64,000 nucleotides of DNA, taken from assembly GCF_023278565.1 (NCBI RefSeq), contig NC_064672.1, positions 1,612,001-1,676,000 of the forward strand, in the 5' to 3' direction. Origin of the DNA: Colletotrichum lupini (taxonomy: Eukaryota; Ascomycota; Sordariomycetes; Glomerellales; Glomerellaceae). Numbering within the stretch: position 1 is the stretch's first letter; each line of letters begins with the position of its first letter. Position numbers and translations under genes: made by a program. Below, one piece after another: positions 17,686 through 51,229 of this stretch. The notes under the pieces are model-generated. The model was given only the letters and a program-made list of their open reading frames with translations, was not told where the DNA came from and did no database searches.

Positions 17686-19094
17686 GTTTTGTGTGGCGAG
17701 GGTGGGCCTTTCGAGTTACGAGTAGGTAGGTAGTGGGAGGGAGACTAGTTGTGAGGGCCTGAGAGTACGGACGAACTTGGATGTTGATGAAGGGTGTCTA
17801 GTCTTTATGTAGTCGTCTCATCGTCGACCACACACCTATGCACCTCCACACACGACGGTGCAACGGTGCGTATGGGTTCGCATAGGAAACCGGTAAGTAG
17901 GCCATGTTGTTGCTTGTCCATCGCTAGCCTAACCCCTGGCTCGGGGTCCAGCGCGACTATGACGCTTAGGGAGGGAGATGAGTTGTATGCTAAAATCACC
18001 TCCCACATAAGCGTAATTCTTGCTTCTCTGATTAGAGACTACGGTGCCAGGGCTCCACACTGATGGAGCTTGGTAGACGGTAACACTCGCGTAGGATATG
18101 CCTAGCTGCCGCGATGTCTGGCAATGCAGATCGATGGTGGTTTTGGCGCGGGGGGTAGGGGTGACTGTGGTTGACGATAGGTGTGGTTAACGGGTGTCAA
18201 TGCATGGATGATCGGGTTCGTGTTCGCATTGTGGGGCCGTCTCGTATGGGAAACACGCTGGGACGAACCAACATTCGTCTCAGATTGCACTGCCTAGACG
18301 GATCGGGGCCCGGAGAGTAAGTGCCGAGTGGCAAACCGGATCAATTTTGTGGCCGGAGGCCGGTACCTGAGTTCCGGTTCCCGTTCGGAAGCAAGAGTCG
18401 GCGGCCCCACATCTGTGGAAAAACGTACCTTAGTATGTCATCCGGTCGTCTCACAAGGTCAAAGGATGTGCTTACCTAAGAGATCTATAGATCACGTGAG
18501 CTGCCTCATTCTGCCCCGAATGGCAGACGGTGCCAGCGGGAAACGGCACTGCGGCCGCCAAGCCCCTCCGATTCGCCATTTCTTTACCCCTTTGTCCAGA
18601 AACAGACCTTGAAGGACTTGGTCGCGAACATGCTTCATTGTCATACCTAACGCAGCGTATTTACCGCCCAATCTTGATCACCAAGCACCTGAATGCGGCC
18701 GATGGTTTTTTCCCATGTTTCGCGACACAATGCAGCGCTTATCCGAAGATGACACGTGAGCAGTCAGGTGCAGGCATGATTTCGGGAATAAGATTGACAA
18801 GGCTACCACTTTCTGCGCCCGATCCTTCGTTACATTAACCAATTGACGCTTCGTTACATTGCCCAATTGACGAATTGAAACCGTGAGAACCTTTGGAGCG
18901 GTGAGTTCCGGTACTAGTACCCGATTTTCCAACCTCACTCCGTTATCTGTGCCTCCCCCCCGCCGTACAACCTACGCAGTAAGACATAACCACCACCCCG
19001 CCCCGCGGTTTGGGAGCTTGATGGTATCACAACCACGCTCCGGGTTCCACACTTCTCAGACGGCGGCAATCGCTGCCAAACTTTTATCAGAAAG
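17686..19094. promoter_or_regulatory. Divergent promoter region between P450 and ABC transporter
   Basis: 1.4 kb lies between two divergently transcribed genes and must carry both promoters. The clearest element is a 24-bp tandem duplication with CCAAT boxes at 18825-18872. A CGTTAC/ACATTG-rich segment and several CACGTG-like and TTGAC stretches are present but cannot be assigned. No open frame with a recognisable motif occurs. Confidence 0.5.
18825..18872 (+). repeat. 24-bp tandem duplication carrying two CCAAT boxes
   Basis: Two head-to-tail copies, 18825-18848 and 18849-18872, differ only at two adjacent bases (AA versus GC). Each holds a CCAAT box followed by TGACG. It lies 222-270 bp upstream of the ABC transporter ATG, the usual range for a CCAAT-binding complex in fungal promoters. 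Confidence 0.7.
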
Positions 19095-22000: not shown

Positions 22001-23657
22001 GGCTGTGTTGGTGTTGGTCTTTGCATTGTTCAGACTGGGCAGTCTCCTCAACTACTGGTTCCTCAAAGCTTGGGGTGAAGCGTACAAGCACGAGATATCG
22101 ACAAAGGGAGCGTCCGCCGGCATTGACTTCTCCAAGCTTTTTGCTGGGCTTCCGGATCCAGACACCGATCTGAGGCCCTGGCTGTGGGTGTATCTCGGAA
22201 TCGCAGTCACTCAGGCTGTGATTTACACGTTGTCTGAAGGACTGACCTTACTCATGATCATTACCGCGGCAAGGGATCTCTTCAAGAGGGTCATCAACAA
22301 AGTCGGCCGTGCAACTTTCCGCTTCTACGACGTTACTCCAGTGGGGCGCTTGATGAACCGCCTCGTCTCTGACATTGGAATGATCGACGGCGGCATCATG
22401 AGACCGCTACGCGAAGTTGCTGTTCAGTCCATCACTTGGTTCTCAAGCATGGTCGTCATCGCCTCCGTCACACCACTTTTCCTCCTCTTCTCGGTTGGTA
22501 TGACGCTCTGGTTCGTCTACATCTTTATGCGATTCCTGCCCACTTCTCAGAGTCTACGAAGGCTCGAAATGGTCTCCCTCAGCCCTCTCATGTCTAATTT
22601 TGGTATCTTGCTCGACGGGCTGGCAACCATCCGCGCCTTCAAGGCCCAGCACCACTTCCAGAACATGAACATTGTCGTCACGGATGCCTTCCAGAAGATG
22701 GATCACTTCTACTGGAGTCTTCAAGCCTGGCTCATGTACAGATTCGATGCCCTCTCCGCCATCTGTACCTTTGCTCTCACTCTGCTTGCGCTGTACAAGG
22801 GCCTCTCGCCCGGTTTGACCGCCTTCGTCTTGACGACTGCGTCCGCATTTGTCGAGGCAACACATAACCTCTGCAAGCAATACGGCACCCTGCAGATGGA
22901 CTTTGTCTCAGTCGAGCGCGTGATTGAGCTCCTGGACATTCCCGAAGAGCCTTGCGGCGAACTGACGCCGCCCACGAGCTGGCCTCACCACTCGGACGAC
23001 GTCATCTTTGATAACGTCACTTTGAGGTACGCATCTCACCTGGACCCTTCGATCTCGGAAGCCTCCTTCACTATCCCTGGGGGCTCCACTTGCGCGGTGC
23101 TCGGCAGGACGGGGTCTGGTAAGTCCACCCTGGCCCTCGCCCTCCTCGCGACCATTCACCCTTCCGAAGGCGCCATCCGCGTTGGAAACTACAAGCTGTC
23201 AGACGTAGACGTTCATGTGTGGCGGCAACGCGTCAGCTTCGTCGCGCAAGATCCTGTGCTCTTCCCCGGCACGCTGCGGGACAACCTCGACCCGCTACAC
23301 CAGTACACCGATACCGAGTGCGTGGTCGTCCTCCACCGGGTCCTCGGCGCCGGGTGGGACCTGTACTCCCACGTCGAGGGCGGCGGGAAGAACCTGAGCC
23401 AGGGACAGCGGCAGCTCATCGGGATCGGCCGGGCCGTCCTCCGGAGGAGTCCTATTGTGGTGTTGGACGAGGCTACCGCGTCGATTGATAAGGAGACGGC
23501 GGCTAGGGTGCAGGAGGTGCTGAGGAATGAGTTGACTACGAGCACCGTCATTACGATTGCGCATCGGCTTGAGGCTGTTCAGGATGCAAACTACTTTATC
23601 CGCTTGGACAAGGGGAAGATTGTTGAGCATGGACCGGCGCAGGGGATTCATCAGTAA
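19095..23657 (+). CDS. ABC transporter, ABCC/MRP subfamily, full-length
   Basis: ATP-driven exporter of the multidrug-resistance-associated type, expected in the plasma or vacuolar membrane. Single uninterrupted exon, 1520 aa, the normal length for fungal ABCC proteins. An N-terminal membrane extension (first span about residues 68-90) precedes TMD1-NBD1-TMD2-NBD2. NBD1 has Walker A GKVGSGKT (about 725-732), signature LSGGQRARVA (about 816) and Walker B VLLLDDPLAALD. NBD2 has Walker A GRTGSGKST (about 1335), signature LSQGQRQLIG (about 1432) and Walker B IVVLDEATASID. The NBD1 Walker B ends in DDP rather than DEA, so its catalytic glutamate is replaced by aspartate, a known ABCC asymmetry. 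A strongly acidic Asp/Glu loop (about 414-440) breaks TMD1. Its position beside a P450 and a C6 regulator fits export of a metabolite or xenobiotic, but the substrate is unknown. Confidence 0.95.
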   Translation: MSSFADLDGGGGLPSSGLPYYSYVAFQDVLAGPSHLHSPSYAKFQAENATTAKILTTAQLFNASRVMDITNIVRASVAVVLLFLVLLRPLLRRRPAWCSGFAQESSYGDTTHSSLKKAWTFWTVYLFAVTLAGLVQGVSSTLAQPRRVFDLLDLVPWIVAALITAMDRPTKTPKTLLFLYLTILSCGVVSTAFSYRLHRLVHTLILADPVISMAGIIGIVAMPMRDPSLGDSDIARAEPTDQLRSPEDNLSLWRFMTVSWMAPMISKGYEKQLHNEDVWQLPFDFQHERLHGLFHELRGSMTAKLFSANGLDLIIQSFLGIIECAAALSVPMLLQQLLRAIQSGSKNIEVSILYAIGILAVRLIACQAAVFQLWFSRRCYERSRGEMITTLYAKTLSRKHFGQPAAEKMLNGAQEDGNDESDDDDEDTEVATDDNESGSEPTSRFGKLFGWFRRGRSTNQKYRRVQDQRPSRQPATTGKILNLMRNDVYEVAQRFWEFPALVVKPLQFIFSFFLVWQLLGWSCMFGMLCVLLAQMLNTVFITQLLKKERVRRAATDARLQSTSQFVEGIRHLRWYDWQSKWLDAIMVTRRHELRTRVVTGLWSIAISTLNITSGTLFPVATFFAYTFIAGKTLSVDVAFPALSLFTLLETSFKELPGLITVVLNASIAMGRIEEFMSEPDKDGVFSDHLTNDIKFTKATFAWPGYEQPVLRNLDISFPQGLTVIFGKVGSGKTALLQAILGELDRQIGDVVIPTEPIGYCAQSPWLQHMSIRDNILFSAPFDSVRYTQTLDACALLPDLATFKHGDLSDMGENGIGLSGGQRARVALARAVYSRSRVLLLDDPLAALDHNTAESIVKKLLQGPLVEGRTVVLVTHRVDLCLHLAGQMVEVVDGTARVLNSEEASAEVAKFLLEDEDPAAHQDEHEHTLDETQQDAAIPSKFIEEEHRAHGGVMLSVYWTYIKAGKLKWWAVLVLVFALFRLGSLLNYWFLKAWGEAYKHEISTKGASAGIDFSKLFAGLPDPDTDLRPWLWVYLGIAVTQAVIYTLSEGLTLLMIITAARDLFKRVINKVGRATFRFYDVTPVGRLMNRLVSDIGMIDGGIMRPLREVAVQSITWFSSMVVIASVTPLFLLFSVGMTLWFVYIFMRFLPTSQSLRRLEMVSLSPLMSNFGILLDGLATIRAFKAQHHFQNMNIVVTDAFQKMDHFYWSLQAWLMYRFDALSAICTFALTLLALYKGLSPGLTAFVLTTASAFVEATHNLCKQYGTLQMDFVSVERVIELLDIPEEPCGELTPPTSWPHHSDDVIFDNVTLRYASHLDPSISEASFTIPGGSTCAVLGRTGSGKSTLALALLATIHPSEGAIRVGNYKLSDVDVHVWRQRVSFVAQDPVLFPGTLRDNLDPLHQYTDTECVVVLHRVLGAGWDLYSHVEGGGKNLSQGQRQLIGIGRAVLRRSPIVVLDEATASIDKETAARVQEVLRNELTTSTVITIAHRLEAVQDANYFIRLDKGKIVEHGPAQGIHQ

Positions 23658-26120: not shown

Positions 26121-26325
26121 TGTCGGATTAGAAGTCCAATTCGACCGCGGCATATAGCCGACTGCGCAGGGGCTAATTAGGGGCCCTATTTACGATTATC
26201 GTAGCTAGCCTAACTTATAGTTAGAACCTCCTTTTTATACCTATTACGCAGATATTTATATAGTTTAATTAATCTCTTTATTAACTACGGTTCGAACTAA
26301 CTACTTTATAATAGGGATACTAATA
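26121..26325 (+). repeat. 5' LTR of copia copy 1
   Basis: Starts with TGTCGGATTAG, keeping the canonical TG end; the 3' end reads CTAATA. It is the least mutated LTR start of the four. Confidence 0.88.
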
Positions 26326-29300
26326 CTAATTAGTAATTAAATTCTATTATTATAGATTAGTAAGGTATCTTATTACGTAAAAAAAATAACTTCTTAATAC
26401 CGTACGGGATAAGAGATTCGTACTAATTAACTTTATAGAAGTAGACGAAAAAGGAGGCAATTCTTAAATACTATTCGGAATTGAGTAATTATAGCCCTTT
26501 ATTACCTATAAGAGGTTAACGTTTATTATGTTAAAATACGTTAATTAATAGAACTACTTAAGTAACTAGCCTTTTGCCGTTACCCCGAGTAACTTTTTTA
26601 CTAAATAACTTTTCCGTAGCCGGCCCGTAATTAAAAATTAACTAGTTAAATTAAAAAAAGAAAATACTTACGTAATAAATACCTACCTAATTAATTAGCG
26701 TAATAAATAAGCTTAATAATATAATATAAAAGAGTACCGCGCGATTAAAAAAGGGGATTTTTAAACGTAAATATTCTTACTTAGTAGCGAAGGTAACCCT
26801 ATAAGAGCTATTAAACTAAGAGATCTATAGTATATAAAAAAGTCTATTACTACGAGGATTTTATAAGTACGACCTTAAGCCCGTAATTTAAATAACCTCT
26901 TTATAACTCTCTTAACTACCCTCCGGGTATTATTTAAAAATATAATATAGAGGACGGTTTAATAAAGGAGGAGGGGATTTAGAAGTCCTAATAGTATCGA
27001 GTTAAGAATATTATAAATCTCGGAGATTAACCTAAGAAAAAGGTAGCTACCCTAAAATAGTCCTATAACCTCTTATTAGAGTTATTATTAGCCTAAGAAA
27101 AGGCTAAAAGGACGAGGATTTAAGGAGAGAAAAAAGAATCCTCTAAAGGGCTACTAAAGGGCTTCTTTTTATACTAACTCCCGGCGCGAGATTACTAATT
27201 TTAAAAAATTAACTAAGTAATAAAAAGGATTACTAGTAAATAATAATTACCTAACCGTAATTAAGCTACGAAAAAGACTACTTAAAAAATATAAAATAGG
27301 GTACTAAGAGGCCATAAAAAACGAAATCTCTAAAGTATCTAACTCTACCGCGTACGAGTAATAAATAAACATTTTTAATAAGTCCTTAAAATCCACGATC
27401 TTACGAGAAAGAGGGCTTAATTTCGTTAACTATACTTAACGGCCTATATAGTTCTTAATAGCCTATATAGCTCCTTTACGAGCCGCACGGCGTCTACTTT
27501 TAACTATTCTTATAGAATACTACTTTAAAAAAGGTAGGTTAGAAAAAGAAGCTATTTAAAAATTATAAAAAGTACGAGGCTTAGGAGGCTAAAAGTATAC
27601 GGGATAATAAGAATTAATAACTAATAAAGATCTTAAAACTAATTACTATATCTTCTTATAGTAATATAAACGTCTACCGCTACTATTATTAAAAAGAATT
27701 ACTAAAACCTACCTTTTTATACTAAATAAAAAAGAGGATCTTAATAAGTATAATAACTAGCGATCTAAAAGGGTAGTAATAATTATTAAAAATAATAAAA
27801 ACAAAAGTAATAGTAAAATAGTAAGAAGAAGCGAGAATCTCCTAAACCCTAACAAATTTATTAAGTAGTAAAAGTACGGATTTGCTATAACTAGCGCGCA
27901 GATTAAATATATCCCTATTAAAATTAAATACGCTAGCGACTATTAATATAGGTATAAGCTAGAGCACGACCCTTAGTAAGTTAGGATAAAAAAAAAGAGG
28001 ATAAAACCTAATCCTAAATAAAATCCTAATCCCTTATAAGTAAGTAAATATTAACCCGGACTATTAAGGGACGTAAATATATAAAATCGTAAATTAGCCT
28101 AACAGCGAGCAAATTAACGCGGTATTAATCTATTTAACTAAGGTTTATAAAAAAAAGGGGCTATAGGGGTAACCCCTATTCTATAAAATCGTAAATAACC
28201 TTAGCTACTAGCTAGATAAATAGTTCGTAATCGTAAGCTTAGAAATTATAAAAGTAGTTAATAGATTTTTTTATAAGCGAGGGGTATTATTAGCGTAATT
28301 ATAATTATAAGAGCTATATAAAATATTAATAGCGATAATTATAAAGGAGGAATTCGTACTATAGAACTAAGTATAGGTTAATAGAGCGTATAATCGCTTT
28401 AACGAATTTAAAAAAAGGGTAAACGACTTAGATTTCCTCTTTATAATTACTAATAAAAATCTATTATTATAAAAGGATATACCGGGGTAAAATATAATAC
28501 TAAAAGTACGATAATCGATAATTCTATTTATTTTGATTTATAACTCGTTATTATTACTAATACGAAATTCGGTACCGATTGGCTAATAAAAAAAGAGGTA
28601 AACGACTTAAAGTTATTAATAATACGTAGCGACGCAGGGATCGTATATAAATATTAAAAATCTAGTAGTAAATATAAAGTAATTTATAAACCTTAAAAAG
28701 ATCTTCTTAAAAAAGAAATTATACTCTAGGGGGAAGTATAAGGTTTTATAGAAAACCCTAACGATATTTTACGATTATTATAAAAAAGTCAGAATTAGGG
28801 AATACTAATACTATTTAGTAATTAATATCGTACTCATAGGCAAAGCCTCTAATTATTATTACGAAGCGGTATATAATCTTAATCAAAACGACTTTCTTAG
28901 TATAATTAACGTAATCCGAAGCCGCTTCGAGACCTATAATAAGAACCTAGAGCTCCTATTAAAGCTATGAGTAATTTCTTTTATATCTATAGCTAGGATA
29001 ATAGAGGGTAAATCGTAAGTAAAGATCCTTAAAAAGCTTATCGATCGAATTAATAAGCTAATAAAAACCTAACTAAATAAGGGGATAAATAAGTAAAAAG
29101 TTAGATATCTCTATACCGTAGTTTAGCGTATATTAAAAGCAAAAATAACCCTATACTAGGTACCCGAAAACTATAAAACGCTCTATTTAAAACTAAGATT
29201 TAGCTTTAATATTAAAACGAGAATACTATACTAAACCTACCTCTAGGTATATAACGGCCCTTATTAATAATATTAAGTTAATTAAACGTATAATAAAAAA

Positions 29301-32300
29301 AGAAAAGAGGCTAAATATAGTAATCGTTAGTAAGGAGGCCTAGATTTGTTAAATAAGTAGAGATTTAATTTACGGGTAGGGTAATAAAAAAAGTAATATT
29401 ATATTTATAAAAAGGATAGATATTAGTTAAGTAACTACTCTAAAAAAGAGCGTACTAAATCGTATAAATAGTATAAAAAGTTAAGGGTAGTAAATAGTAA
29501 AACTAGCCCTTATTAGTTTAACTAATTCCTTATTATATATAAAAGAAGATCCGGGGGTATAGAACCTAGCGATAATAGCTAAAGTAGCGGCCTAAAGTAT
29601 ATACCCCCTATAAAAGATTTAGAAAATAAGGAAGATCTTACCCCCTATATTAACGAATTAAATTATAATAAAATTAATAATATTAACTACTCTTTTTTTA
29701 CCCCGTTAGCCTCTAAAGGATATACGAGGCTAAATAAATAGAGAGTAATAAAAGCTCTTAATAAGTAGGCTTTTATTTACGGATAGTAAGGGAAGGTCCC
29801 TTAGATAACGAATACGGAGGCGGCTAAAAGGGCAAATTTAATAGGGCTAAAGCCTATTCTCTTAACGATTAAGGAAAAGACGCTATCTTTTTTAATATTT
29901 AAAGAAAAGGAATATAGTACTAAGTATATTTAGGGGCAGCTAGAGGGGTCCTTTTTATACTACCTAGATCCTTTAAATACTAAGCTTATATAAGCATTTT
30001 ACGTAAGCGAAAAGTACGGCTTAGATAATTTTTATAGAATTATCCTAAATACTAGGGTATCGTAATAGTTAACTAAAAAAAAAAGGTAATTCTAAGCGCT
30101 ATAAAAGATTATACTAATAACGCTTAATACGTTAATAGCGGGTATTACGAGGATTAGTTTTAGCTTAAATAAGGAAATTATTACCCTAGGTATAATAGAA
30201 GTAGAGACGTACTTCGGAATAATAACTTTCTATATTTTACCCGTTAATACCCCATTTCTCTTATATTTAAAAGATATAGATTAACTAAGTATTATATTTA
30301 ATAATACGAGGAATAGAATCTCTAGCGGTAAGTACTTTGAAATAGTCGAACGATAATAGGGGTATACGTTTATAAAGCTTACTAATAATACGAAGTTAAT
30401 TAATTATTTAATAAAAAGTAAGCTTAGAAAACTATATTAGAAATTCGGGTACCCGTTAGTTACGAGGCTATATAACCTCTTAAAGTAATTAGGTAATAAT
30501 AATATCGAAATAGGGGCGCTAGAATAGTTAACGAAAGTATATTATTAATACTAAATAAATACGTAGAGCCTACGCAGATTTAAGTTTAAATTACGTAATA
30601 AGTTTAATTTTAACTAAGAAATTGTCGTCGATATTTTTTATTTAAATAGTCGGCTAGTATTATATATAATTAACGTAGCTATATTTTTTTAAGTAGGGTA
30701 ATTCTTTTAGGATTTATAAATAAAAATAGTATAAGTAGCCTTATAAAAAAGCTAAATCGATATATATTAGGGACCGCTAGATGGTATTAGAACCGACGCT
30801 AGTACTAGCTTTAAGTTAGTAAAATTTAAGAATAATACGACGGCTTATAGTATATAGCTAAAGGTCGTACCCGTTAAAGCGTACTGTAGTATTAGAAAGG
30901 TAGAGAGGGTATATTAGTAATTAAAAAGGGCGTTTAGAATTATTAAAAAAGAAAATCCGGATTCTACTAATAACGAATACCTCTAAATAGTACTTAAATA
31001 CTATAACGATACTATGGGGCTTAACGGATTTATATTAACGCTATTAGTATTTAGAGTATATTTAAAAACGACCTTAGCCTTACTACCGTTACTAAGTATA
31101 AGCTAACGAGCCCGAGTAATTAAAAAAGTAATACGGGTACTGCGCGAGGTAAGTATAAAAAAGTAAGTTAACGAGGTAATTACTATATATAATAGGCCCG
31201 ACATAAGGGATAATCTAGATATATTACTAAATTCGGATATATAAGTATAGTGCGAAATTACTTAATAATAGGCTAGGCTATATAAGTTAATTTCTATTAA
31301 CGAGCGCTCTTATATAATTATAAGAGATCGTAATTAGTTACTTAAAATATTAATTATAGTAATCAAACCGTACTATAAGGATCCTAACGAGGTAATTTCT
31401 AACTTATAAAAAAAAAAGAGCTAAGGGAAACTATACAACCTATAGTAGAGGTATAAGAAATTATCCTTAATAAAATCGTCGTAATAATACTAATAAATAA
31501 CGAGGAAAAGGAAATTACTAAAAAGGCACTAATATTACTAGCGAGACGTCGTAAAAAACTACGACAGTAAGCCCTAACGTAGTAATTTATTACTAGCGAC
31601 GAGGTAATTAATACTTTTTATATAATAAAAGAGAAAGCCGATTTTAAGCTAGTAATTAAACTACGTAAAGAAGGCGTAATTATAACTACTAAAAAGCCGT
31701 ATAAGGGATTAGATCTTATTAAAGTAAATACTCTTTACGATCGAGGGGTCTATTAATTTATCCTATACGACCTAAAAAAATATATAAACCTCCGTATATT
31801 TAAATTATAAATAGTTTATAAGATTAAAAAGAAAGGAATACCCTAGCCATACGAGAAGTCTAAATATATAATTTAAGAGTACGGTAACGTTAAAAAGGCG
31901 ACGTTACTTATATAATTACCTACTATATAGTACTATAGCTAACGATTAATAATAGTACTAATAATATCGTTACGAAAAAAGGGATACGAGATTTAGAGCC
32001 GTAATATTACCTAGGCCTATACTTAATCGGCCACAGGGCTCATAAGGAAAATCCTAGCCTATTTACTAAAAGAAATAGCTAATAAGTACCCAGAAGGCAC
32101 GATTATTAAAGTACTTAAGCTACTATATAGGCTCGTAGAATTAGGTACTTATTAGTAAGCTATATACTACGATTTTTATATTAATTAATTATTAATAGTT
32201 ACTTCTATATACGACCCGTGCTTATTAGTTACGGAGTACGAAGGTAACTAATTTAGGATTATTAGAATATAAACTGACGATATATTAAGCCTATCTGATA

Positions 32301-33334
32301 TTAATTTTATAAAGAAGGAGGATAAGGAGCTCTAAAAAACGGGCTTCGTAACGAAGTTAAAAAAGGTCCTTATAATAAATACCCCCTTAGTATTTAATAA
32401 CGGGATTTTTATAATTAAAAGGGAAACTGTCCTTTTTTAATAAAAGGGGTAGGGTAAGAAAATTAACTTTATTAATCTAAACGTAACTGACGTTAAGAAG
32501 CGGTATAAAGCTAAGCTCGCGCGAGGGGTATATATTATAAGTATTTATTAGCCCGAGGTAATTTTTAATTACGCTAGGGTAGCGCAGGCTATAAATTTAA
32601 CTAAATAAAACGTTAAGGTACTTAATAAGTAGCTTAAGTAGTAATAAATAAATCTCGATCGAAGTCTTATTTATTACTTAATTAACTTTATAACTAATAA
32701 GCTTTACGTCTTTATTAATAAATTATTTACGAATAATAACGACCTTATTTCGTAATTAAAGTATATTATTATCCTAACTAACGAGAGTATAGGCGAGAGC
32801 GAATTTATTATATATAGTAATATAATCCACTACTTATTAACTAAAAATAAGCGGGTAATAAGAAGTATATTAGCGTTAGAGGTCTATAATATAGTTAATA
32901 GTATTAACCTCTCCTACGCGATTTTAATAATACTAAAAAAAATTATTAATTAAATTAGCCTTCTACTTATTCTAATAGTTATTTATACTAATTCCTACTC
33001 GCTATACGAATACTTTATTAAATTAGGAACGATAAAGGAAAAGAAGTTTATAATTAATATTATAGCCCTTAAGTAATCGTATAAAAGGCACGAGATACTC
33101 GAGATCCGTTAGATTAATAATAAAGATAACTTTATAAACGCTTTTATAAAAGTAATACTAAATAAGGGATTAGAATAATTCGTAAGTAGTAAAAAAGTTA
33201 TTATATAAATAAAGGGATAGGTTATATAAAAAGAGTAGAGAAAAGGGGGAAAAGGAGACGACTTAATAAACGGGCCCGAGGTCGAATTATACCTCTAACC
33301 GTAGTAGTTAAATTAATAAATAAAAAAAAGTTAG

Positions 33335-33539
33335 TATTAGATTAGAAGTTTAATTTAACTGCGGTATATAGCCGACTACGCAGGGGCTAATTAGGGGCCC
33401 TATTTACGATTATCGTAGCTAGCCTAACTTACGGTTAGAACCTCCTTTTTATACTTATTATGTAAATATTTATATAGTTTAATTAATCTCTTCGTTAACT
33501 ACGGTTCGAACTAACTACCCTATAATAGGGATACTAACA
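33335..33539 (+). repeat. 3' LTR of copia copy 1
   Basis: Starts TATTAGATTAG, which is the 5' LTR start after G-to-A and C-to-T changes, and ends CTAACA, keeping the canonical CA. Length is 205 bp, as for the other three LTRs. Confidence 0.88.
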
Positions 33540-33781
33540 TAGACATAGAGAAAGTCTAAAAAGTGTAGTATGACCTAATAGAAGCTCAAGAGCTAGAAAA
33601 GCATCATTGCACTTATCTCTAATGGTCCTATTGCGCTCTCAGCGCACAAGAAGCTGTCTATGTCAGAGTTGAAGTCACATCAAAGGGTGTTGTGTCTAAT
33701 AATGAGTTCATAAGTCTGCTCCTCGTAAGTCGAAAAGAAAAAATGGGACTAATACAAATCGATAAGTCTCGTCTCCCTTGA
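33540..33781. other. Unmutated host spacer between the two inverted copia copies
   Basis: 242 bp of ordinary composition, rich in CA and TG, flanked on both sides by RIP-saturated DNA. Its minus strand holds a 22-codon open stretch ending at TGA (33710-33708) that is in frame with an open reading frame on the far side of copy 2. Confidence 0.7.
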
Positions 33782-33986
33782 TATTAGTATCTCTATTACA
33801 AGGTAGTTAGTTCGAACTATAGTTAACGAAGAGATTAATTAAACTATATAAATATCTGCGTAATAAATATAAAAAAGAGGTTCTAACCGTAAGTTAGGCT
33901 AGCTATAATAATTATAAATAGGGCCCCTAATTAGCCCCTACGTAGTCGGCTATATACTATAATTAAATTAGATTTTCAATTTAATA
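33782..33986 (-). repeat. 3' LTR of inverted copia copy 2
   Basis: 205 bp; begins TATTAGTATC on the plus strand (from TGTTAGTATC) and ends CAATTTAATA, the mutated complement of the LTR start. Confidence 0.86.
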
Positions 33987-36900
33987 CTAATTTTTTCTTT
34001 TTTTTATTAATTTAACCGCTATAGTTAGAGGTATAATTCGACCTCGGGCCCGTTTATTAAGTCGTCTTTTTTTTCCCTTTTTTTTACTTTTTTTATATAA
34101 CCTATCCCTTTATTCGTATAATAACTTTTTTACTACTTATAAATTATTTTAATCCCTTATTTAGTATTACTTTTATAAAAGCGTTTACGAGGTTATTTTT
34201 ATTATTAATTTAACGGATCTCGAATATCTTGCGCCTTTTATATAATTACCTAAGGGCTATAATATTAATTATAAGCCTCTTTTTTTTTTTTTCCTAATTT
34301 AATAAAGTATTCGTATAATAAGTAAGAATCGGTATAAATAACTATTAGAATAAGTAAAAAGCTAATTTAATTAGTAATCTTTTTTAGTATTATTAAAATT
34401 ACGTAAGAGAGGTTAATACTATTAACTATACTATAAACCTTTAACGCTAATATATTTCTTATCATTTACTTATTTTTAATTAATAAGTAATAGATTATAT
34501 TACTATATATAATAAATTCGCTCTCGCTTATACTCTCGTTAACTAGGATAATAATATACCCTAATTATAAAATAAGGTCGTTATTATTTATAAATAACTT
34601 ATTAATAAAAACGTAGAGCTTACTAATTATAAAGTTAATTAAGTAATAAACGAGACTTTAATTAAAATTTATTTATTATTACTTAAGCCGCTTATTAAGT
34701 ACCTTAATATCTCGTTTAATTAAATTTATAACTTATATTACCCTAGTATAATTAAAAATTACTTTAAGTTAATAAATATTTATAATATATATCCCTCGCG
34801 CGAGCTTAGCCTTATATTACTTTTTAATATTAGTTATATTTAAATTAACGAGGTTAATTTTCTTACCCTACCCCTTTTATTAAAAAACGACGGTTTCCCT
34901 TTTAATTATAAAAATCCTATTATTAAATATTAAGAAGGTATTTATTATAAGGACCTTTTTTAGCTTTATTATAAAGCCCGCTTTTTAAAGCTCTTTATTT
35001 TCTTTTTTTATAAAGTTAATATTAAATAAGCTTAATATATCGTTAGTTTATATTTTAATAATCCTAAATTAGTTACCTTCGTACTCTATAATTAATAAGC
35101 ACGGGTCGTACGTAAAAATAATTATTAATAATTAATTAATATAAAAATCGTAGTATATAGCTTATTAATAAGTACTTAATTCTGCGAGCCTATATAGTAG
35201 CTTAAGTACTTTAATAATCGTATTTTCTAAATACTTATTAACTATTTTTTTTAATAAATAGGCTAGGATTTTCTTTATAAGCCCTATAGCCGATTAAGTA
35301 TAGGCCTAGGTAATATTACGGCTCTAAATCTTATATCCCTTCTTCCGTAATAATACTATTAGTATTATTATTAATCGTTAGCTATAGTACTATATAGTAA
35401 GCGATTATATAAGTAGCGTTGCCTTTTTAACGTCACTATACCCCTAAATTACGTATTTAAACTTTTTATACGGCTAGGGTATTCCTTTCCTTTTAATCTT
35501 ACGAATTATTTATAATTTAAATATATAGAAGTTTATATATTTTTCTAAGTTATATAAGATAAATTAATAAACCCCTTAATTATAAAGAATATCTACTTTA
35601 ATAAGATTTAATCCCTTATATAACTTTTTAATAATTATAATTACGCCTTTTTTACGTAGTTTAATTACTAATTCGAAATCGGCTTTTTTTTATATATATA
35701 AAAAGTATTAATTACCTCGTTATTAATAATAAATTATTATATTAAGGCTTACTATCGTAGTTTTTTATAACGTCTTACTAATAATATTAATACCCTTTTA
35801 ATAATTTCTTCTTCCTCGTCGTTTATTAATACTACTATAACGATTTTATTAAAAATAATTTCCTATACCTCTACCGTAGGTTATATAGTTTCCCTTAGCT
35901 CTTTTTCTTTTTATAAATTAAAAATTACCTTATTAAGATCTATATAATACGGTCTAACTACCGTAATTAATATTTTAAATAATTAGTTATAATTTCTTAT
36001 GACTATATAAGAGCGCTCGTTAATAAAAATTAACTTATATAGCCTAGCTTATTATTAAGTAATTTCGTACTATACTTATATATCCGAATTTAATAATATA
36101 TCTAGATTACTCCCTATATCGGGCCTATTATATATAATAATTACTTTATTAACTTACTTTTTTATACTTACCTCGCGCAATACTTATATTACTTTTTTAA
36201 CTACTTAGGCTCGTTAGCTTATACTTAGTAATAGTAGCGAAGCTAAGGTCGTTTTTAAATATATTCTAAATATTAATAGCGTTAATATAAGTCCGTTAGG
36301 CCCTATAATATCGTTATAATATTTAAGTACTATCTAAAAGTATTCGTCGTTAATAAAATCCGGATTTTCCTTTTTAATAATTCTAAACGCCCTTTTTAAC
36401 TATTAATATACCCTTTTTACCTTTCTAATACTATAGTATACTTTAATAGGTACGACTTTTAGTTATATACTATAAGCCGTCGTATTATCCCTAAATTCTA
36501 CTAACTTAAAACTAATATTAATATTAGTTCTAATACCGTCTAGCGGTCCCTAATATATATTAATCTAGCTTTTTTATAGGGCTACTTATATTATTTTTAT
36601 TTATAAATCCCGGAAGAATTATTTTACTTAGAAAGATATAGCTACGTCGATTATATATAATACTAACCGACTATTTAAATAAAAAATATTAACGACGATT
36701 TCTTAGTTAAAATGAAGCTTATTACGCAATTTAAACTTAAATTTACGTAGGCTCTGCGTATTTATTTAATATTAGTAATATACTTTTATTAACTATTTTA
36801 GCGCCCCTATTTCGATATTATTATTATTTAATTATTTTAAAAAGTTATATAGCCTCGTAACTAACGAGTACCTAAATCTCTAATATAGTCTTCTAAACTT

Positions 36901-39900
36901 ACTTTCCGTTAAGTAATTAATTAATTTCGTATTATTAATAACCTTTATAAATATATACCCCTATCGTCGTTTAACTATTTTAAAATACTTACCGCTAGAA
37001 ATTCTATTCTTTATATTATTAAATATAATACCTAGTCGATTTATATTTTTTAAATATAAGAGAAATAGGGTATTAATAAGTAAAATATAAAAGGTTATTA
37101 TTTTAAAATACGTCTTTACTTTTATTATACCTAGGGTAACGATTTCCTTACCTAAACTAAAACTAATTTTTATAATACTCGCCGTTAACATATTAAGCGT
37201 TACTAACGCGATTTTCTATAATACTTAGAATTACCCTTTTTTTTTAGTTAACTATTATAATACCCTAGTATTTAAAATAATTTTATAAAAATTATTTAAG
37301 CCGTACCTTTTACTCGTATAGAATATTTATATAAGCTTAGTATTTAAGGGATCTAAGTAATATAAAAAGGACCCCTCTAGCTACCCCTAGATTTACTTAG
37401 TACTATATTTTTTTTTTTTAAATATTAAAAAAAATAGCGTTTTCTCCTTAATTATTAAAAAAATAAGCTTTAGCCTTATTAAATTTACTTTTTTAGCCGC
37501 TTCTATATCCGTTATTTAAAGGACCTTCCCTTACTATTTATAAATAAAAGCCTATTTATTAAGAGCTTCCGCTATTCTTTATTTATTTAGCCTCGTATAT
37601 CCTTTAGAAGTTAATAAGGTAAAAAAAAAAGTAATTAATATTATTAATTTTATTATAATCTAATTCGTTAGTATAAGGGGTAAGATCTTTTTTATTTTCC
37701 GAATCTTTTATAAGGGGTATATATTTTAAGCTACTACTTTAGCTACCGTTACTAAGTTTTATACCCTTAGGTCTACCCTTATATATAATAAAGAATTAAT
37801 TAAACTAATAAAAGCTAGTTTTACTATCTATTACCCTTAACTTTTTATACTATTTATATAATTTAGTACGCTCTTTTTTAAAGTAGTTACTTAACTAATA
37901 TCTATTTCTTTTATAAATATAATATTACCTCTTTTATTACTCTACTTATAAGTTAAATCTTTACTTATTTAATAAATCTAAGCCTCCTTATTAATAATTA
38001 CCGTATTTAGCCTCTTTTCTTTTCTTATTATATATTTAATTAACTTAATATTATTAATAAGGGCTATTATATACTTAAAAATAAGTTTAGTATAGCATTC
38101 TCGCTTTAATATTAAAACTAAATCTTAGTTTTAAATAGAGCGTCTCGTAGTTTTTAAGTACTTAATATAAAGTTATTTTTACCTCTAATATATACTAAAC
38201 TATAGTATAGAAATATCTAACTTTTTACTTATTTATCTCCTTATTTAACTAGGTTTTTACTAGCTTATTAATTCGATCGATAAGTTTTTTAAAGATCTCT
38301 ACTCGCAATTTACCTTTTATTATCCTAGTTATAAATATAAAAAAAATCGCTTATAGCTTAAATAAGAGCTCTAGGTTCTTATTATAAGTCTCGAAGCGGC
38401 TTTAGATTACGTTAATTATATTAAGAAAGTCGTTTTAATCGAGATTACGTACCGCTTCGTAATAATAATTGAAAGCTTTATTTATAAATACGATATTAAT
38501 TACTAAATAGTATTAATATTCCCTAATTCTAACTTTTTTATAATAATTATAAAATATTATTAAGGTTTCTTATAAAACCTTATACTTCCCCCCAGAGTAT
38601 AATTTCTCTTTTAAAAAGATCTTTTTAAGGTTTATAAATTACTTTATATTTATTACTAAATTTTTAATATTTATATACGATCCCTGCGTCGCTACGTATT
38701 ATTAATAACTTCAAGTCGTCTACTTCTTTTCTTATTAACTAATTAATACTAAATTTCGTATTAATAATAATAACGAGTTATAAATTAAAATAAGTAGAAT
38801 TATTAATTATCGTACTTTTAGTATTATATTTTACCCCGGTATATCCTTTTATAATAATAGATTTTTATTAGTAATTATAAAAAGGAAATTTAGGTTATTT
38901 ACCCTTTTTTTAAATTTATTAAAACGATTATACGCTCTATCGACTTATACTTAGTTTTATAGTACGAATTCCTCTTTTATAATTATTATTATTAATATTT
39001 TATATAGCTCTTATAATTATAATTACGCTAATAATACCCCTTATTTATAAAAAAATCTATTAACTACTTTCGTAATTCCTAGGCTTATGCTCGTAAACTA
39101 TTCGTTTAGTTAATAACTAAGGTCGTTTACGATCTTATAGAATAAGAATTACCCCTATAACCCCTTTTTCTTATAGACCTTAGTTAAATAGATTAATATT
39201 ACGTTAATTTACTTACCGTTAGGCTAATCCGTAATTCTATATATTTACGTCCTCTAATAATTCGGGTTAATATTTACCTATTTATAAAGGATTAGGATTC
39301 TATTTAAAATTGGGTTTCGTCCTCTTTTTCTTTACCCTAACTTATCAAAGGTCGTATTCTAACTTATACTTATATTAATAATTACTAACGTATTTAATTT
39401 TAATGAGGATGTATCTAATCTATATATTAGTTATAATAAATCCGTGCTTTTATTACTTAACAAATTTATTAAAGTTTAAAAAATTCCTATTTCCTCTCGC
39501 CGTCTTATTACTACTCTCGTTTTTATTATTTTTAATAATTACTACTACTTTTCTAAATCGCTAGCTATTATACTTATTAAGATCCTCCTTTTTATTTAAT
39601 ATAAAAAAGTAAGTTTTAATAGTTCTTTTTTATAATAGTAGCGGTAAACGTTTATATTACTATAAAAAGATATAGTAATTAATCTTAGGATTTTTATTAA
39701 TTACCGATTTCTATTATTTTATATACTTTTAGCCTCCTAAGCCTCGTACTCTTTATAATCTCTAAATAGCTTCCTTCCTTAACTTACTTTTTCTAGGGTA
39801 ATATTTTATAAAAGTAATTAAAAATAAACTCTAGGTAGCTCGTAAAAGAGCTATATAAGCTATTAAAAACTATATAAGTTATTAAGTACGGTTAACGAAA

Positions 39901-40994
39901 TTAAGCCCTTTTTTTTATAAAATTATAAATTTTAAAAACTTATTAAAAATACTTACTTATTACTTATACATAATAAGGTTAAATACTTTAAAAATCTTAT
40001 TTTTTATAGCCTCTTAGTACCCTATTTTATATTTTTTAAATAGTCTTTTTCGTAGTTTAATTATAATTAAGTAATTATTACTTACTAATAATCCTTTTTA
40101 TTACTTAGTTAATTTCTTAAAATTAATAATCTTATACTAAGAGCTAATATAAAAAGAAGCTTTTTAATAACCTTTTAAAAGATTTTTTTTTTCCCTTAAA
40201 TCCTCGTTTTTTTTAGCCTTTTCTTAAGCTAATAATAACTTTAATAAGAAGTTATAAAACTATTTTAAAATAGCCGCTTTCTTTTTAAGTTAATCTCTAA
40301 GATCTATAATACTCTTAACTTAATACTATTAAAACCTCTAAATTCCCTCTTTTCTTATTAAACCGTCCCCTATATTATATTTTTAAATAATACTCGGGGA
40401 GTAATTAAAAGAGCTATAAAGAAGTTATTTAGATCGTAGGTTTAAAGTCGTACTTATAAAATTCTTATAATAATAGACTTTTTTATATATTATAAATCTC
40501 TTAGCTTAATAACTCTTATAAAGTTATTTTTATTATTAAATAAAAATATTTATATTTAAAAATCCCCTTTTTTAATTATATAATACTCTTTTATATTATA
40601 TTATTAAACTCGTTTATTGCGCTAATTAATTAAGTAAATAGTCGTTATATAAGTATTTCTTTTTATTAATTTAATTAATTAATTTTTAATCGTAAGCCGA
40701 TTATAAAAAAGTCGTTTAATAAAAAAGCTACTCGGGGTAATAATAAAAGGCTAGTTATTTAAATAGTTTTATTAATTAATATAGTTTAATATAATAAACG
40801 TTAATCTCTTATAAGTAATAAAAAGCTACGATTATTTAATTCCGTATAGTATTTAAAAATCGCCTCCTTTTTCGTTTACTTTTATAAAGTTAATTAATAT
40901 AAATCTCTTATTTTATATAATATTAAAAAGTCGTTTCTTTTGCGTAGCGAAATATTTTATTAATTTATAATAGTAGAATTTAATTACTAATTAG

Positions 40995-41199
40995 TATTAA
41001 TATCCTTATTATAAAGTAGTTAGTTCGAACCGTAGTTAATAAAGAGATTAATTAAACTATATAAATATTTATATAATAAGTATAAAAAAGAGGTTCTAAC
41101 CGTAGGTTAGGCTAGCTATGATAATTATAAATAGGGCCCCTAATTAGCCCCTGCGTAGTCGGCTATATGCCGCGGTCGAATTAGACTTCTAATCCGATA
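40995..41199 (-). repeat. 5' LTR of inverted copia copy 2
   Basis: 205 bp; ends CTAATCCGATA on the plus strand, the complement of the LTR start with its terminal CA changed to TA. Confidence 0.88.
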
Positions 41200-41514
41200 C
41201 TTAAAGTTAGATCGGAGTACCGACGTATTGTCGTTGGCTATAGCGTTTAATGAACCGCTGCAGAGAAAATCTCGGAGTTGTTCGTCGCTGTGAATTTTGC
41301 TTTTCTTCACTGAGCCAGATGCGGATATATCTCGGAACGGAAGATAGTATCCCTTCTGGAGACCTTTGGCAGTGAAGAGTTGATCCTTGCACTCCCACAG
41401 CCTCTTCCGGTGACGATCAAGCGCCGCTGTGCCGTAGGCAGCGGCAGACAGATGGTTCCGTGGATATTGACCATACGCGTTGTACGATGTCGTAAAACGG
41501 GTCGCAGTCGTCAT
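41200..41514 (-). pseudogene. Possible host gene fragment interrupted by copia copy 2
   Basis: An open frame starts at ATG 41514 on the minus strand and runs 105 codons to the edge of copy 2. If the element and one copy of the target duplication are removed, the frame continues without a stop from 33776 for another 22 codons and ends at TGA 33710-33708, for 127 aa in total. The composition is mixed and no known domain is recognised. Continuity across the insertion site is suggestive, but a stretch of 22 open codons could arise by chance. Unrecognised; function unknown. Confidence 0.35.
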
Positions 41515-43991: not shown

Positions 43992-46900
43992 ATGAATCAT
44001 GACAGTAAATCTGATTTCAAGCTTCAGTATCAGATTGCATTGTCTGAATTTGTTGAAATACGACGGGAGGAGACGAGAACCTCTGCATGTAAGCAAAAGT
44101 TTGTACTTGTAGACAATGTCACCAAAAGGTTGAAGAGTCGTTCTGCCACCTGTTCCACTCAGTACGACAACAATCTCGACAGATTACAGCGCACCGCATA
44201 CCTCCAGTATGAACTTGAGCCGCCTCAAATGCGAGCGCAGCATTATGAGGAAGACGAGTATCTCGCCATATTCTACACCTTACTCGACATTCAAGCGCCG
44301 TCGCTTATAAACCTTTTCCGCGATAATGGACTCAACAAGCTTCCGATCGAACTCACATACCTGAAGAAGTGCATCAAGCCCCCACCGAAACCTCGATTTC
44401 ATGATTTTCACGAGCGATTCTATAAAACGCAATTCGACTGGTGTCCGATACGATTTGACATGGGCATGCGTCAAGTCTATCGCGATGCAGTCAGTCCACT
44501 CTCGCGCAAGGAGAAGATCACGCCGTATCGTGAGGGCAAGGGACCAAAAGAGAACAACGCCACTCTGTATGCGATCGACGTTCCAGAAGAACTCGTTGGC
44601 CGGCAGCTACGGGAGAAAATGGCATCAGCCAAGATTGAAAGACAAGGGGAGGGGAGAAATGGTAAGGGTCTAGTAAGTCTTCTCCCAAGCATCTCTTGAA
44701 AAGGAATAACAACTGACAAAACATCCATCATAGACATATCGCTTCGCTTTAAAACAATTCAGGCCACACAAGCATGAGCACTTCCTCAATGAGATCAAGA
44801 TGTTCAGCAATCTTGAACATGAGGAAGGAATGATACAATACATCGGATGGTTCGGGAGTTTCGAACTTGGCGATGACGGTGCCAAACAAGAATACTTCAA
44901 TATTGTTCTAGAGCTCGCCGACTTCGACTTCTATGAGGCAATGATGAGGCTATCACCGCCAATATCCTCAGAAGAAATTCACGGCTTCTGGGAGTCTATG
45001 TTTGAGATCTCGAAGACACTGGCATCTATCCACACAATCACGATCGCTGGCATGAAATATTGGACGTAAGTTAACGTCTACGAGGGGTTTATGGCCAAAG
45101 CTAAATGCTCTCTCCTAGATGGCACGGAGATATCAAGCCAGAGAACATTCTGAGAGTCAATGATCGCTTCAAACTAGCCGATCCTGGTGAAGCAAGCATG
45201 TTGCTCAAAAATTCCGCAACACCGTACCTACCGCCGTCAAAATCATTGGGGGGAACAAGAACTTATGGTGAGTCCGCCAGCCACATGATCAGGAAACAAC
45301 TAGTTGACCAAATTTATGATCAGCGGCACCTGAAAAGACAGCTTATCTAGATGATATCAGCACCAAGAGGCCGAAAGTCACTCCAGAAAGTGATGTGTGG
45401 TCTCTTGGGTGCGTCTTATCAATTGCTGCGACCTATGTTGTTCTTGGGACTCAAGGAGTCCTGATCTACCAACGGCTCCGTCGTCAGGACACTCAGAATG
45501 CCAGGGGGAGAATGAGTGACGCATTCCATGACGGCGAGCAAGTCCTACCTGAGGTTCTTCATTGGCACCAGTATCTGCGCGAAGCAGCCAGAAGGACAGA
45601 CCCGTACACGTCCGCCATCTTGGACATGGTCGATGGCCACATGCTTGTGCCCGGAGATAGGCGGGAAACTGCGAAGAAAGTTTGCAGCAGCTTCAAAAGC
45701 ATTATCGCGAAGAATGATACCCGCCCTTCCAAAGTCCCTCCTGGCTTGCAACATATGCTTCAAAGCATTGAACTCGAGGTTGAACGTTCTTCGGAACATA
45801 AGTCTGGAATCAAGAGAGTTGACTCAGACGATATCACAAAACCGATGGAACGGTTTGACTTGCCCTTACCTGAGATTGAGTTTGAGAGTCAGAAGAAGTT
45901 GTTGGATCAAGCCATCCAGCCAACAGCGCAACGGCCACGCACGATGCGTGGATCCCCCACCCAGTCACCACATCAATCGGTGAGATATCCTATGCAGAGC
46001 TTGGATAGACAAGGTAGCACGCACTCCCATAGTCATGGGTATCCAGATCCTCCACGCGGAAATTCGGCAATCTCATCCTCAAGCCAGCCAGTCAGCGCTC
46101 ACCCGACCTCATTGAACCCGAAACCTCCGAGTCACCGATCAAGAAGTCCGATACGACGTGAGCCTGTCAAGGCTTCTCAAGTCAAACAAGAGCTGAAGAA
46201 AGTAGGACTCAGTTTCAAACCGTCGCCCAAGAGTCTCAGTTCCCTCATTCAGCGACAAAAGACTTCCGTAAAAGGGAAAACCTCCAACAGTAAGGAGAGC
46301 CTAGATGCTTTGACTGAACTGGACTCTCGTCTGGAGGAGGAGTACAAGGGGCGTGATATCGTGAGTACATCAAACGTTGTTTGAAAACCCTGTAGGCTAA
46401 AAGTAACAGGTCTTCCTCGTGGACAATGGCACTACCATGCGGAAATGGTGGTCTTCAGTCATCGACTTACTGGAGGTCATGGTATGGAGGGCGCTGGCGT
46501 ATGATGACGACGGGATGGAGATGTACTTCACAAACCCCGACACGAATCCAAAGGCCACCGTCAGGGGTAGCAAGTCCCAGTCGGTAAGATCTTTCACCAA
46601 GGCGCTGGACCTTGCAGAGCCTGCAGCAGCCACTTCGCAGACGTCTGTCGAGACCACCATTATCCCCGAGCTCGAGCGGATCATCAACGACTACACACGA
46701 GCAAAGACCTCAAAGTACGAACCACGCAAAAAGACCATCATTGTGTTGACTGATGGCATCTGGAGGGGCATGCATGATGAATACACCGTCGACACGTATC
46801 TCCGATCGACTTTCCATTGTCTGAGAGATCTGCATGGCGACCTGACGTACATTCATCCTGACCAGCCACATAGTCGAAAGGACGTGTCAGAGATCAGACC

Positions 46901-47601
46901 TGTGACAATTCAGTTTGTTCAGTTCGGCGATGACAAGGAAGCGAGAGAGCGACTCCGGCGCCTCGACGACGACCTGGCTAAATATGGCTGCCCGTAAGTA
47001 CCTCTTTCAACTTCCCTGTAGTATCTTTAGCGATTGGAATAATCTAATGCCAATTAGCGACCTAATCGATACGGAACACGCTGAAGGCGATCTATACAAA
47101 ATGTTCCTGGGAAGCCTATGCCCAGACATTGATCGCACTTTAAGATACAGCATCGGACCCCAGTCTCCATCTTCAATTCCCCACGTCCCGCCGGGGCAAG
47201 GCTCCGGTACATCCACCAACGTTCTCAGTCTCCGGACGAACACGTTGAATCAACCTCCGCAAGAACCATATAGCCTAGCACCTCTACAGACATCGCCTTT
47301 AGCAATAACACCAGTCGATTTCTCCGTGAATCATCACGGAGCGTTCATGCCAACTACGCCAAACTACGAGCTTCCTGCCTCTTCACATGACGGCCCGTCT
47401 CACGCCGTGTCTCCCATGTCACCTCAGTCTTCTCCCCCGCAAAGAGATACCAGGTGGCAAGTCGCCGGCCCATCGTCGGAGAATGCATCACCGTCGTGGC
47501 CAACAGTGGAATCGAGTTCGTCCAGCGGGCAGCATGAGCAGACGCCCCGATCACCGGCAGCTGCCTCACCAATCCAGTACTACAGACATCCGTACAATTA
47601 G
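43992..47601 (+). CDS. Protein kinase fused to a von Willebrand factor A domain
   Basis: Six exons (43992-44672, 44734-45065, 45119-45267, 45324-46360, 46410-46993, 47058-47601) join in phase and give 1108 aa. Residues 1-210 form an N-terminal region seen in fungal-specific kinases (DEYLAIFYTLLDI, then RFYKTQFDWCPI). The kinase domain follows: glycine loop GEGRNG near 219-224, ATP-binding Lys234 (FALK), catalytic loop HGDIKPEN with Asp342, Lys344 and Asn347, DPG in place of DFG at 359-361, APE ending at Glu391 and the DVWSLGCVL helix. All catalytic residues are present, so it is probably active. A Ser/Pro-rich linker with basic patches (about 560-720) leads to a vWA domain: VFLVDNGTT (734-742) is a variant MIDAS start, and IIVLTDG (Asp848) its second strand. 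The tail after about 960 is Ser/Pro-rich and disordered. Partners and substrates are unknown. All introns are 49-64 nt. Confidence 0.85.
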
Positions 47602-49129: not shown

Positions 49130-51229
49130 TTAGTAGGCGGTGTAGCATTCAAAGCCCTCCGCGACAAGCGGGTCCTGGTGGTAGTTGGTGGGTGTGACAG
49201 TGTTTGACGACGAGATGGAAAAGGCCGTCTCGTGCGACAAACCGTTGTTCATTGGCGAGTTCTGACCAAACGGGGAGAAGGCAAAGGCTTCCGACGCGGA
49301 GGAGAGCGGCATGTTGGAAACAGCCAGGTACGAGGCCTGGGTAGTGTCGATCGCCGCCAACTCAGGCATGTGGTAGGACGGCGGGAAACCCATGTCGTAG
49401 GTCATGTTCTCGCCCATGTGGCCAAGAGACAGGTCCATCGACATGGAGGGTTCGAACTGTTGGGCAGTGGCCTGAGTCTCCTCCTCATCTTCCTCTTGGG
49501 CCTCGCCCTCGGCAACCTCGTCGTCGGCAGCCACAAACACCTCTTCCATCCACTGCTTGAGCTCGTTCATGGGGGGCCAGTCGCCACCGCCCTTACCACC
49601 GCGCTTCTCCTCGTCGTCACCCCGCTTGTTCTTGCCACGGGGAGTCTTGGGCTTGAAGTGCGTGCGGCGGAGATGGGCAGCGGCGTTGTAGTAAGCGCCG
49701 TATTGCTTGCGGGCGACGCACTGCTTGCACTTGGAGAGCGGGTTGATAGCCTGAACGCCACTTTGCATGCCGACCGTGCTGGGGTCGCGGCATACAAACT
49801 TCTTGACGATGCCCTCGTGCTTAGCGTTGATGTGTCGGCGCAACTCGTGGTCGCCGCGGAAGCCATCGGGGTGATCGCTGCACATGTCGCAGAACACCTT
49901 GGGGTGCTTGGGACGGGTGTAGCTACCCTTAGAGACAGCAACCTTGCCTTCCTTCTTAGCAGAAGCTGACTGGGACTTGACAGCGTCGTGAGGCTTGGGG
50001 CAGATCTTTGTGCGGTTCGCATTTTGAATCTGCTGGAGGCGTGCTTCTTTTGCCCTGCGCTCTGTGCTTGACTTGGTTGATGCGTTGCTGGTGGCGGAAA
50101 TAGAGCGCTCCATCATCGAGGAGCCTTGGCTGAGGAACTGCTCATCAATGGGCGACTGCTGAGGATATTGAGGCGACAGGCTAGTGCCGGCGCCGACGTA
50201 GGCGAGGTAATCTGACTTATTCGGTGACGTGCCGGAGGGGACAGCGTAAACTTCCGGAGACATGAAGTCGGCAGCACCTTGGGAATGTGCCGAGTTAATT
50301 CTCGTCATACCGAATGCGCCGCTGAGTGACTGGTTGTCAAAAGAGCTGTTTTCCCTCGTAAGAGGCATGGTCTCGGCAGCCGATGTGCCAGAGCTCATGG
50401 ACGGGCAAACCGAGTTGATGAGGCTGGCCTGTGAATTCCGGCCATCGTAGGGCGTCAGGAAGTTCTGCGGCGGCGGGACCATGGCTGGAGATGGTATGCT
50501 CTCGTCTTGCGCAGCGAGGAAGTCGAGAGGGTTCATGCCGACCTCTGGGAAACCTGCGTTCTCTTCGACAGGAGAGAGACCCGAGTGGCGTTTATTTGTT
50601 GGCGATCGCTGAAGGGAGGACTCGAATAGGACATGAGGGTCATCTTGGCTCTGGTAGAAGCGGTCCATCATGGGATTGGGGTTATTTGACGTCTGGAGGG
50701 GCTGTAGAGGGCCCTTGACGACAAAAGGGATAGACTTTTCTGATCTGTTGGAAGCACTTCTAGACATGCCCGTCATGGGCGTGGCGCGGGGGTGCTGCTG
50801 GGACATGACCCTCGCGCGCTTTACGGGATGGGGCGAGTCATCACTTGTGCGCTCCTGGAAGAGAATGTTAGCACACGGACACCTGATTCACGATGGTCAC
50901 GAGCAGTGAAGATGGTGATGGGAGCTGTGGTGATGCATTACCATCATTCTTGTGGGTTGGGCAGCGTAGCCCATGTTGGACTTGCTTCTGGGTATTGTGG
51001 CCCTGCGGTTGAGCAGAGGAGCAGCATTGGGCTGTTGGTGTTGTGTGAAGGCGGCGGCGTCTACATGGTAGTCCCCTTGTGATTGGAGCAGGTTGAAATT
51101 GCTCTGGGCAGCTTGCGGTGCTACTGATGCATTTTGCTGAAGAAGAAGGTTTTGGAGATTTGCCAGCTCTTGTTGCTTCTGTTGCATCTGCCTCTGAATC
51201 TCCTGGACGTTATTGTAAGGATGGTTCAT
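49130..51229 (-). CDS. C2H2 zinc-finger transcription regulator
   Basis: Nuclear regulator. Two exons (51229-50942 and 50854-49130) join in phase 0 across an 87-nt intron and give 670 aa; the splice restores a basic ERTSDDSPHPVKRARV segment that looks like a nuclear localisation signal. The N-terminus is a Gln-rich coiled stretch (QRQMQQKQQELANLQNLLLQ). The middle is Ser/Pro-rich. A classical finger has Cys418, Cys421, His437 and His442 (FCDMC...HINAKH), followed by a second, unusual cysteine/histidine module (Cys451, Cys472, Cys475, His490, His495; KQYGAYYNAAAHLRRTHF). This pair is characteristic of a conserved filamentous-fungal C2H2 group, which I recall as the DUF7896 group, whose targets I cannot name. 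A basic linker and an acidic Glu/Asp stretch (about 540-570) follow. An 11-kb gene-free region lies upstream. Confidence 0.88.

Follow-up and report, generated by a model that had tools for sequence, protein, structure and literature searches.

What does a protein kinase domain do when Asp-Pro-Gly (DPG) stands in place of the Asp-Phe-Gly (DFG) motif and the domain is joined to a vWA domain in a single protein? The gene CLUP02_00469 of the fungus Colletotrichum lupini raises this question. It lies in a 64,000-nucleotide stretch of the forward strand of contig NC_064672.1 (positions 1,612,001 to 1,676,000; here called the window), on C1 of a 63.4-Mb genome in 12 contigs. Judging from sequence comparisons, we lean toward a nucleotide-binding kinase that would still transfer phosphate, with a re-tuned ATP site; its vWA domain, in which the metal site is probably weakened, would dock it.

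A divergent kinase and a vWA fold in one protein

A preliminary description made from the letters of the window proposed six exons in one 1108-residue frame, and a database match bore this out: the six-exon join is identical, letter for letter, to C. lupini CLUP02_00469 (1108 residues), and all five introns have canonical ends. Structure prediction indicated three folded parts: an N-terminal helical domain (predicted helices at residues 5 to 150) comes first, followed by a protein kinase with two lobes and then by a vWA fold. The N-terminal domain gave no match in a Pfam scan at an E value of ≤1. The profile search of the kinase region that the description had proposed matched PF00069 at 67.6 bits, above the curated cutoff of 31.7. 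Lys234, Glu247 of helix alpha-C, Asp342, Asn347, the metal-binding Asp359, and the APE motif (residues 389 to 391) are all present, as are all the kinase residues and motifs named earlier, including DPG. DFG and HRD do not occur in full form, being replaced by DPG and HGD, and the glycine-rich loop signature is absent from the kinase domain. The earlier phrase “complete Hanks-type kinase” thus stands for Lys234, Asp342, Asn347, Asp359, and APE but not for the domain as a whole, because the glycine loop is degraded. From its sequence we file it as a divergent kinase domain, not a standard active kinase.

The best match among solved structures (PDB) was TTK/MPS1, a weak match of 39.1 bits over residues 276 to 421. 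Some relatives are named “Dual specificity protein kinase TTK,” “mph1,” or “mps1” in the sources, probably from weak homology. A match of this strength does not support a true TTK/MPS1 orthologue, and the vWA and N-terminal domains of CLUP02_00469 are not known to be part of TTK.

The metal-ion-dependent adhesion site (MIDAS) of the vWA domain departs from the canonical DxSxS...T...D pattern, since its first Ser is Gly in CLUP02_00469. The variant start had been noticed before, and it proved to be family-wide: of 179 aligned proteins, 170 have Gly, Ala, or Asp at the first Ser position and only 7 have Ser. The other ligands are largely kept (Asp738 in 177/179, Thr815 in 177/183, and Asp848 in 157/184 aligned proteins), with loss of Asp848 concentrated in the DFG group (22/92). 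One of the five canonical metal-site side chains is therefore replaced throughout the family, and metal binding by this domain is probably weak as a result.

An old family divided by the DFG phenylalanine

Searching with CLUP02_00469 returned 82 proteins, and searching with a DFG-type relative returned 207, of which the best 120 were listed. The alignment comprised 191 proteins, including CLUP02_00469; three (P0080 to P0082) had been dropped beforehand. Counting a domain as present when at least 60% of its columns were covered, kinase and vWA occurred together in 177 of the 191 proteins, and all three domains occurred in 161. A query with the vWA region returned 29 proteins, all 29 of which also had a Pkinase annotation. 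We reject two separate genes split near 46361 to 46410, since these 177 proteins hold both domains. The relatives belong to many genera, which we place in the Sordariomycetes, Dothideomycetes, Leotiomycetes, Eurotiomycetes, Lecanoromycetes, and others. By these comparisons the kinase-vWA family is old, paralogous, and large, extending across the filamentous ascomycetes. The preliminary description had called the kinase-vWA combination unusual, had pointed to the DPG motif, and had placed the gene in a kind of setting where lineage-specific fungal genes often occur. That the architecture or DPG would set apart a lineage-specific gene is not supported. The architecture is the common state in the family, 72 of the 191 proteins carry Pro at the DFG Phe position, and a lineage-specific origin is dropped because relatives occur in so many genera, which belong to several ascomycete classes.

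At that position, Phe occurs in 96 of the 191 proteins, and those with neither Phe nor Pro have mostly Leu, Ser, or gaps. We built a tree from 139 of the 191 rows (142 were chosen, and 3 were too short) with the motif columns excluded. A single branch parts 36 rows (31 DPG, 2 DLG, and 3 others) from 103 (91 DFG, 10 DLG, and 2 others). The DFG, DPG, and DLG states together need six changes where the minimum possible is two, because DLG arises several times. Eight DFG-side Apiospora proteins carry DLG (P0141, P0142, P0146, P0148, P0149, P0170, P0173, and P0181), which looks like a separate change at the Phe residue. Separate trees of the kinase, vWA, and N-terminal domains, from 56 rows thinned from the 140 with Pro or Phe, each contained one Pro/Phe change (support of 99, 99, and 95, respectively) and one glycine-loop change. 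Since all three trees share one split, the domains have traveled together since before it and have a single history. DPG marks one ancient paralogue and DFG its sister. DFG is near-universal among kinases, and for this reason we take DPG as the derived state, the root of the tree not being fixed by these data.

Colletotrichum fructicola, Colletotrichum siamense, and Colletotrichum salicis each have both a DFG and a DPG paralogue. With CLUP02_00469 as the query, no second kinase-vWA copy was seen among nine matches in the C. lupini genome; six fell on the gene itself, and three were weak, kinase-only matches (best E value, 6.8e-10). None was seen with a Colletotrichum acutatum DPG relative as the query either. 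The three weak loci have 22 to 28% identity to DFG-clade proteins, too little for any of them to resemble a DFG paralogue. In C. lupini we thus saw the DPG copy alone, but absence of the DFG copy is unproven, as the genome was not queried directly with a DFG-clade protein. In a tree of the first set of relatives (65 of 83 rows), species among P0001 to P0018 that we assign to the C. acutatum complex fall on separate DPG branches (lupini and godetiae; salicis, paranaense, and acutatum; and scovillei), and this placement suggests that old copies may have been lost in different species. The exact linker motif PTA.R occurs in 22 of 72 DPG-type proteins and 1 of 96 DFG-type proteins and is therefore no family mark. 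In the open literature searched, we found no publication on this fungal family, and a word search of the main text of a fungal kinome paper (PMC2838846) found neither “willebrand” nor “vWA.” A C. lupini paper (PMC11645255) mentions a protein kinase orthogroup upregulated in planta, which may or may not correspond to CLUP02_00469.

Loss of the glycine loop and the fate of catalysis

The DPG side contains two groups, DPG-F and DPG-E/D, the latter including CLUP02_00469. All 20 DPG-F proteins and 89 of 90 DFG proteins have a GG[ST]-type glycine loop, but none of the 45 assessable DPG-E/D proteins does. The stretch matching residues 174 to 192 is also longer in DPG-E/D, where the median is 19 residues compared with 12 in both DPG-F and DFG, a lengthening of about seven residues. 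The signature was thus lost later than the change to DPG, inside the DPG-E/D branch, whose named members, which are all but P0032, belong to the Sordariomycetes. Within this branch the catalytic residues are kept without decay: Lys234 in 42/42, Glu247 in 44/44, Asp342 in 48/48, Asn347 in 48/48, and Asp359 in 49/49 proteins, with all five intact together in 41 of 41 assessable proteins. Among 291 kinase columns, 56 are at least 97% uniform, and all seven key residues lie within them; the chance of this is about 7e-6, a figure made too favorable by kinship and long-standing conservation. Such intact catalytic residues, together with further non-Phe states in the family (DLG and DSG), would suit an ordinary active kinase in which Pro is tolerated at the Phe site, a longer loop replaces the glycine loop, and the changes mean little. 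We consider this improbable, because one change is nested inside the other and, far from being scattered, each is fixed across long distances.

We propose instead that CLUP02_00469 is an intracellular three-domain signaling protein in which the N-terminal helical domain and Hanks-type kinase are followed by a long, low-confidence linker, the vWA fold, and a Ser/Pro-rich tail; the intracellular location is a prediction. The scaffolded sensor kinase suggested in the preliminary description is a possible role for such a protein. The kinase would bind nucleotide and still transfer phosphate. The DFG phenylalanine is a regulatory-spine residue, and because the ATP site lacks both this residue and the loop that normally covers the phosphates, the kinase may differ from the DFG paralogue in rate or activation. 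Through its vWA domain, the protein would attach the kinase to a partner with little or no dependence on metal.

Several points count against this proposal. Pseudokinases are known to show changes like the joint loss of the DFG Phe and glycine loop, the catalytic residues may persist for ATP binding alone, and the sequences, being related, do not count as independent observations. The vWA domain, described earlier at residues 730 to 960, is clear as a fold in the predicted structure, but its Pfam score of 15.0 bits falls below the cutoff of 23.8, and its best vWA match in Foldseek had an E value of 1.4e-3.

The main rival, and a serious if tentative one, is a pseudokinase scaffold that binds nucleotide structurally, as JAK JH2 does, and signals through its conformation and the vWA domain only. 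DPG occurs in JAK JH2, the second kinase domains of JAK1, JAK2, JAK3, and TYK2, according to passages of PMC2639636 and PMC6287396 and the motif tables of PMC2754085; these too are regulatory kinase domains inside multidomain proteins. JH2 is also the best-known instance of a DPG kinase domain. A table of PMC2639636 lists HSER as inactive yet ATP-binding, its glycine loop being highly degraded, and the loop signature is gone from all 45 assessable DPG-E/D proteins. However, JH2 retains neither the catalytic Asp (its motif is HGN) nor the alpha-C Glu, as related in part of PMC6287396, whereas CLUP02_00469 has HGD and Glu247, and the DPG-E/D branch as a whole keeps both residues. Unlike the JAKs, CLUP02_00469 has no tandem active kinase, and, so far as the comparison went, the two show no homology at the family level.

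A bolder version of the phosphate-transferring proposal, which we regard as rather unlikely, is that the DFG Phe and then the glycine loop were lost stepwise with phosphotransfer kept, the longer loop becoming a new ATP clamp under vWA control in a large class of fungal kinases. If true, one family would hold a natural step-by-step series from an ordinary to an atypical kinase. The family does hold natural intermediates (DFG with the loop, DPG with the loop, and DPG without it) with the catalytic residues kept throughout, and so one can test directly how far a kinase depends on its DFG Phe and glycine loop.

Other kinase-vWA proteins and the genomic setting

By domain content, the fungal family is a third case, separate from the grass fusions and from VwkA. 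The grass proteins, which include Lr9/WTK6-vWA and Pm57, are likewise of a cytosolic type, with one or more kinases ahead of the vWA domain (parts of PMC10260399 and PMC11153570). Within the grasses the joining took place at least three times, and the resulting proteins have a Vwaint domain (PMC10260399, in part); this hallmark, which follows the vWA domain there, had no Pfam match in CLUP02_00469 at an E value of ≤1. Dictyostelium VwkA, which has Neurospora relatives, also combines a kinase and a vWA domain in a single protein, fungi included (PMC1420674, in part). However, its kinase is of the alpha-kinase class with the vWA domain upstream, whereas CLUP02_00469 has a Hanks-type kinase with the vWA domain downstream; no alpha-kinase domain was matched in CLUP02_00469 in the same Pfam scan. 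With both domains present in 177 of the 191 aligned proteins, the kinase-vWA joining in C. lupini is no local oddity. Because the fungal fusion exists apart from the grass fusions and is much older and wider, these cases suggest that vWA may be a recurrent means of aiming kinases.

Table 1. Exons and sequence features of CLUP02_00469 in window coordinates
Feature	Position	Strand	Residues and content
Exon 1	43992..44672	+	1-227; N-terminal helical domain, kinase N-lobe start
Exon 2	44734..45065	+	228-338; kinase N-lobe including Lys234, Glu247
Exon 3	45119..45267	+	338-388; HGD catalytic loop, DPG
Exon 4	45324..46360	+	388-733; APE, kinase C-lobe, low-confidence linker, first vWA residues
Exon 5	46410..46993	+	734-928; vWA core
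Exon 6	47058..47601	+	928-1108; vWA end, low-confidence Ser/Pro-rich tail, including stop codon
Glycine-loop region, degraded and lengthened	44511..44567	+	174-192
Beta-3 lysine Lys234	44752..44754	+	
Catalytic aspartate Asp342 of HGD	45129..45131	+	
DPG replacing DFG	45180..45188	+	359-361
MIDAS motif 1, DNGTTM	46422..46439	+	738-743
MIDAS Thr815	46653..46655	+	
MIDAS motif 3, TDG	46749..46757	+	847-849

The preliminary description placed the gene 2.8 kb from a block altered by repeat-induced point mutation (RIP), a distance that holds. The AT-rich block (26200 to 41200; 15 kb) falls into two parts, whose GC contents are about 0.29 and 0.22 and whose GC and AT skews run in opposite directions. 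RIP indices are strong over 26 to 41 kb (TA/AT, 1.56; (CA+TG)/(AC+GT), 0.11), and the gene itself shows no RIP signal (0.56 and 1.25, respectively). Nothing connects the RIP block with the function of the gene. Downstream of the gene, the closest large open frame (49133 to 50887 on the minus strand) matches DUF7896 (127.2 bits). Beyond the AT-rich block lie frames at 8632 to 11163 (nitrite-reductase-like), 18990 to 23654 (ABC transporter), and 5648 to 6772 (methyltransferase).
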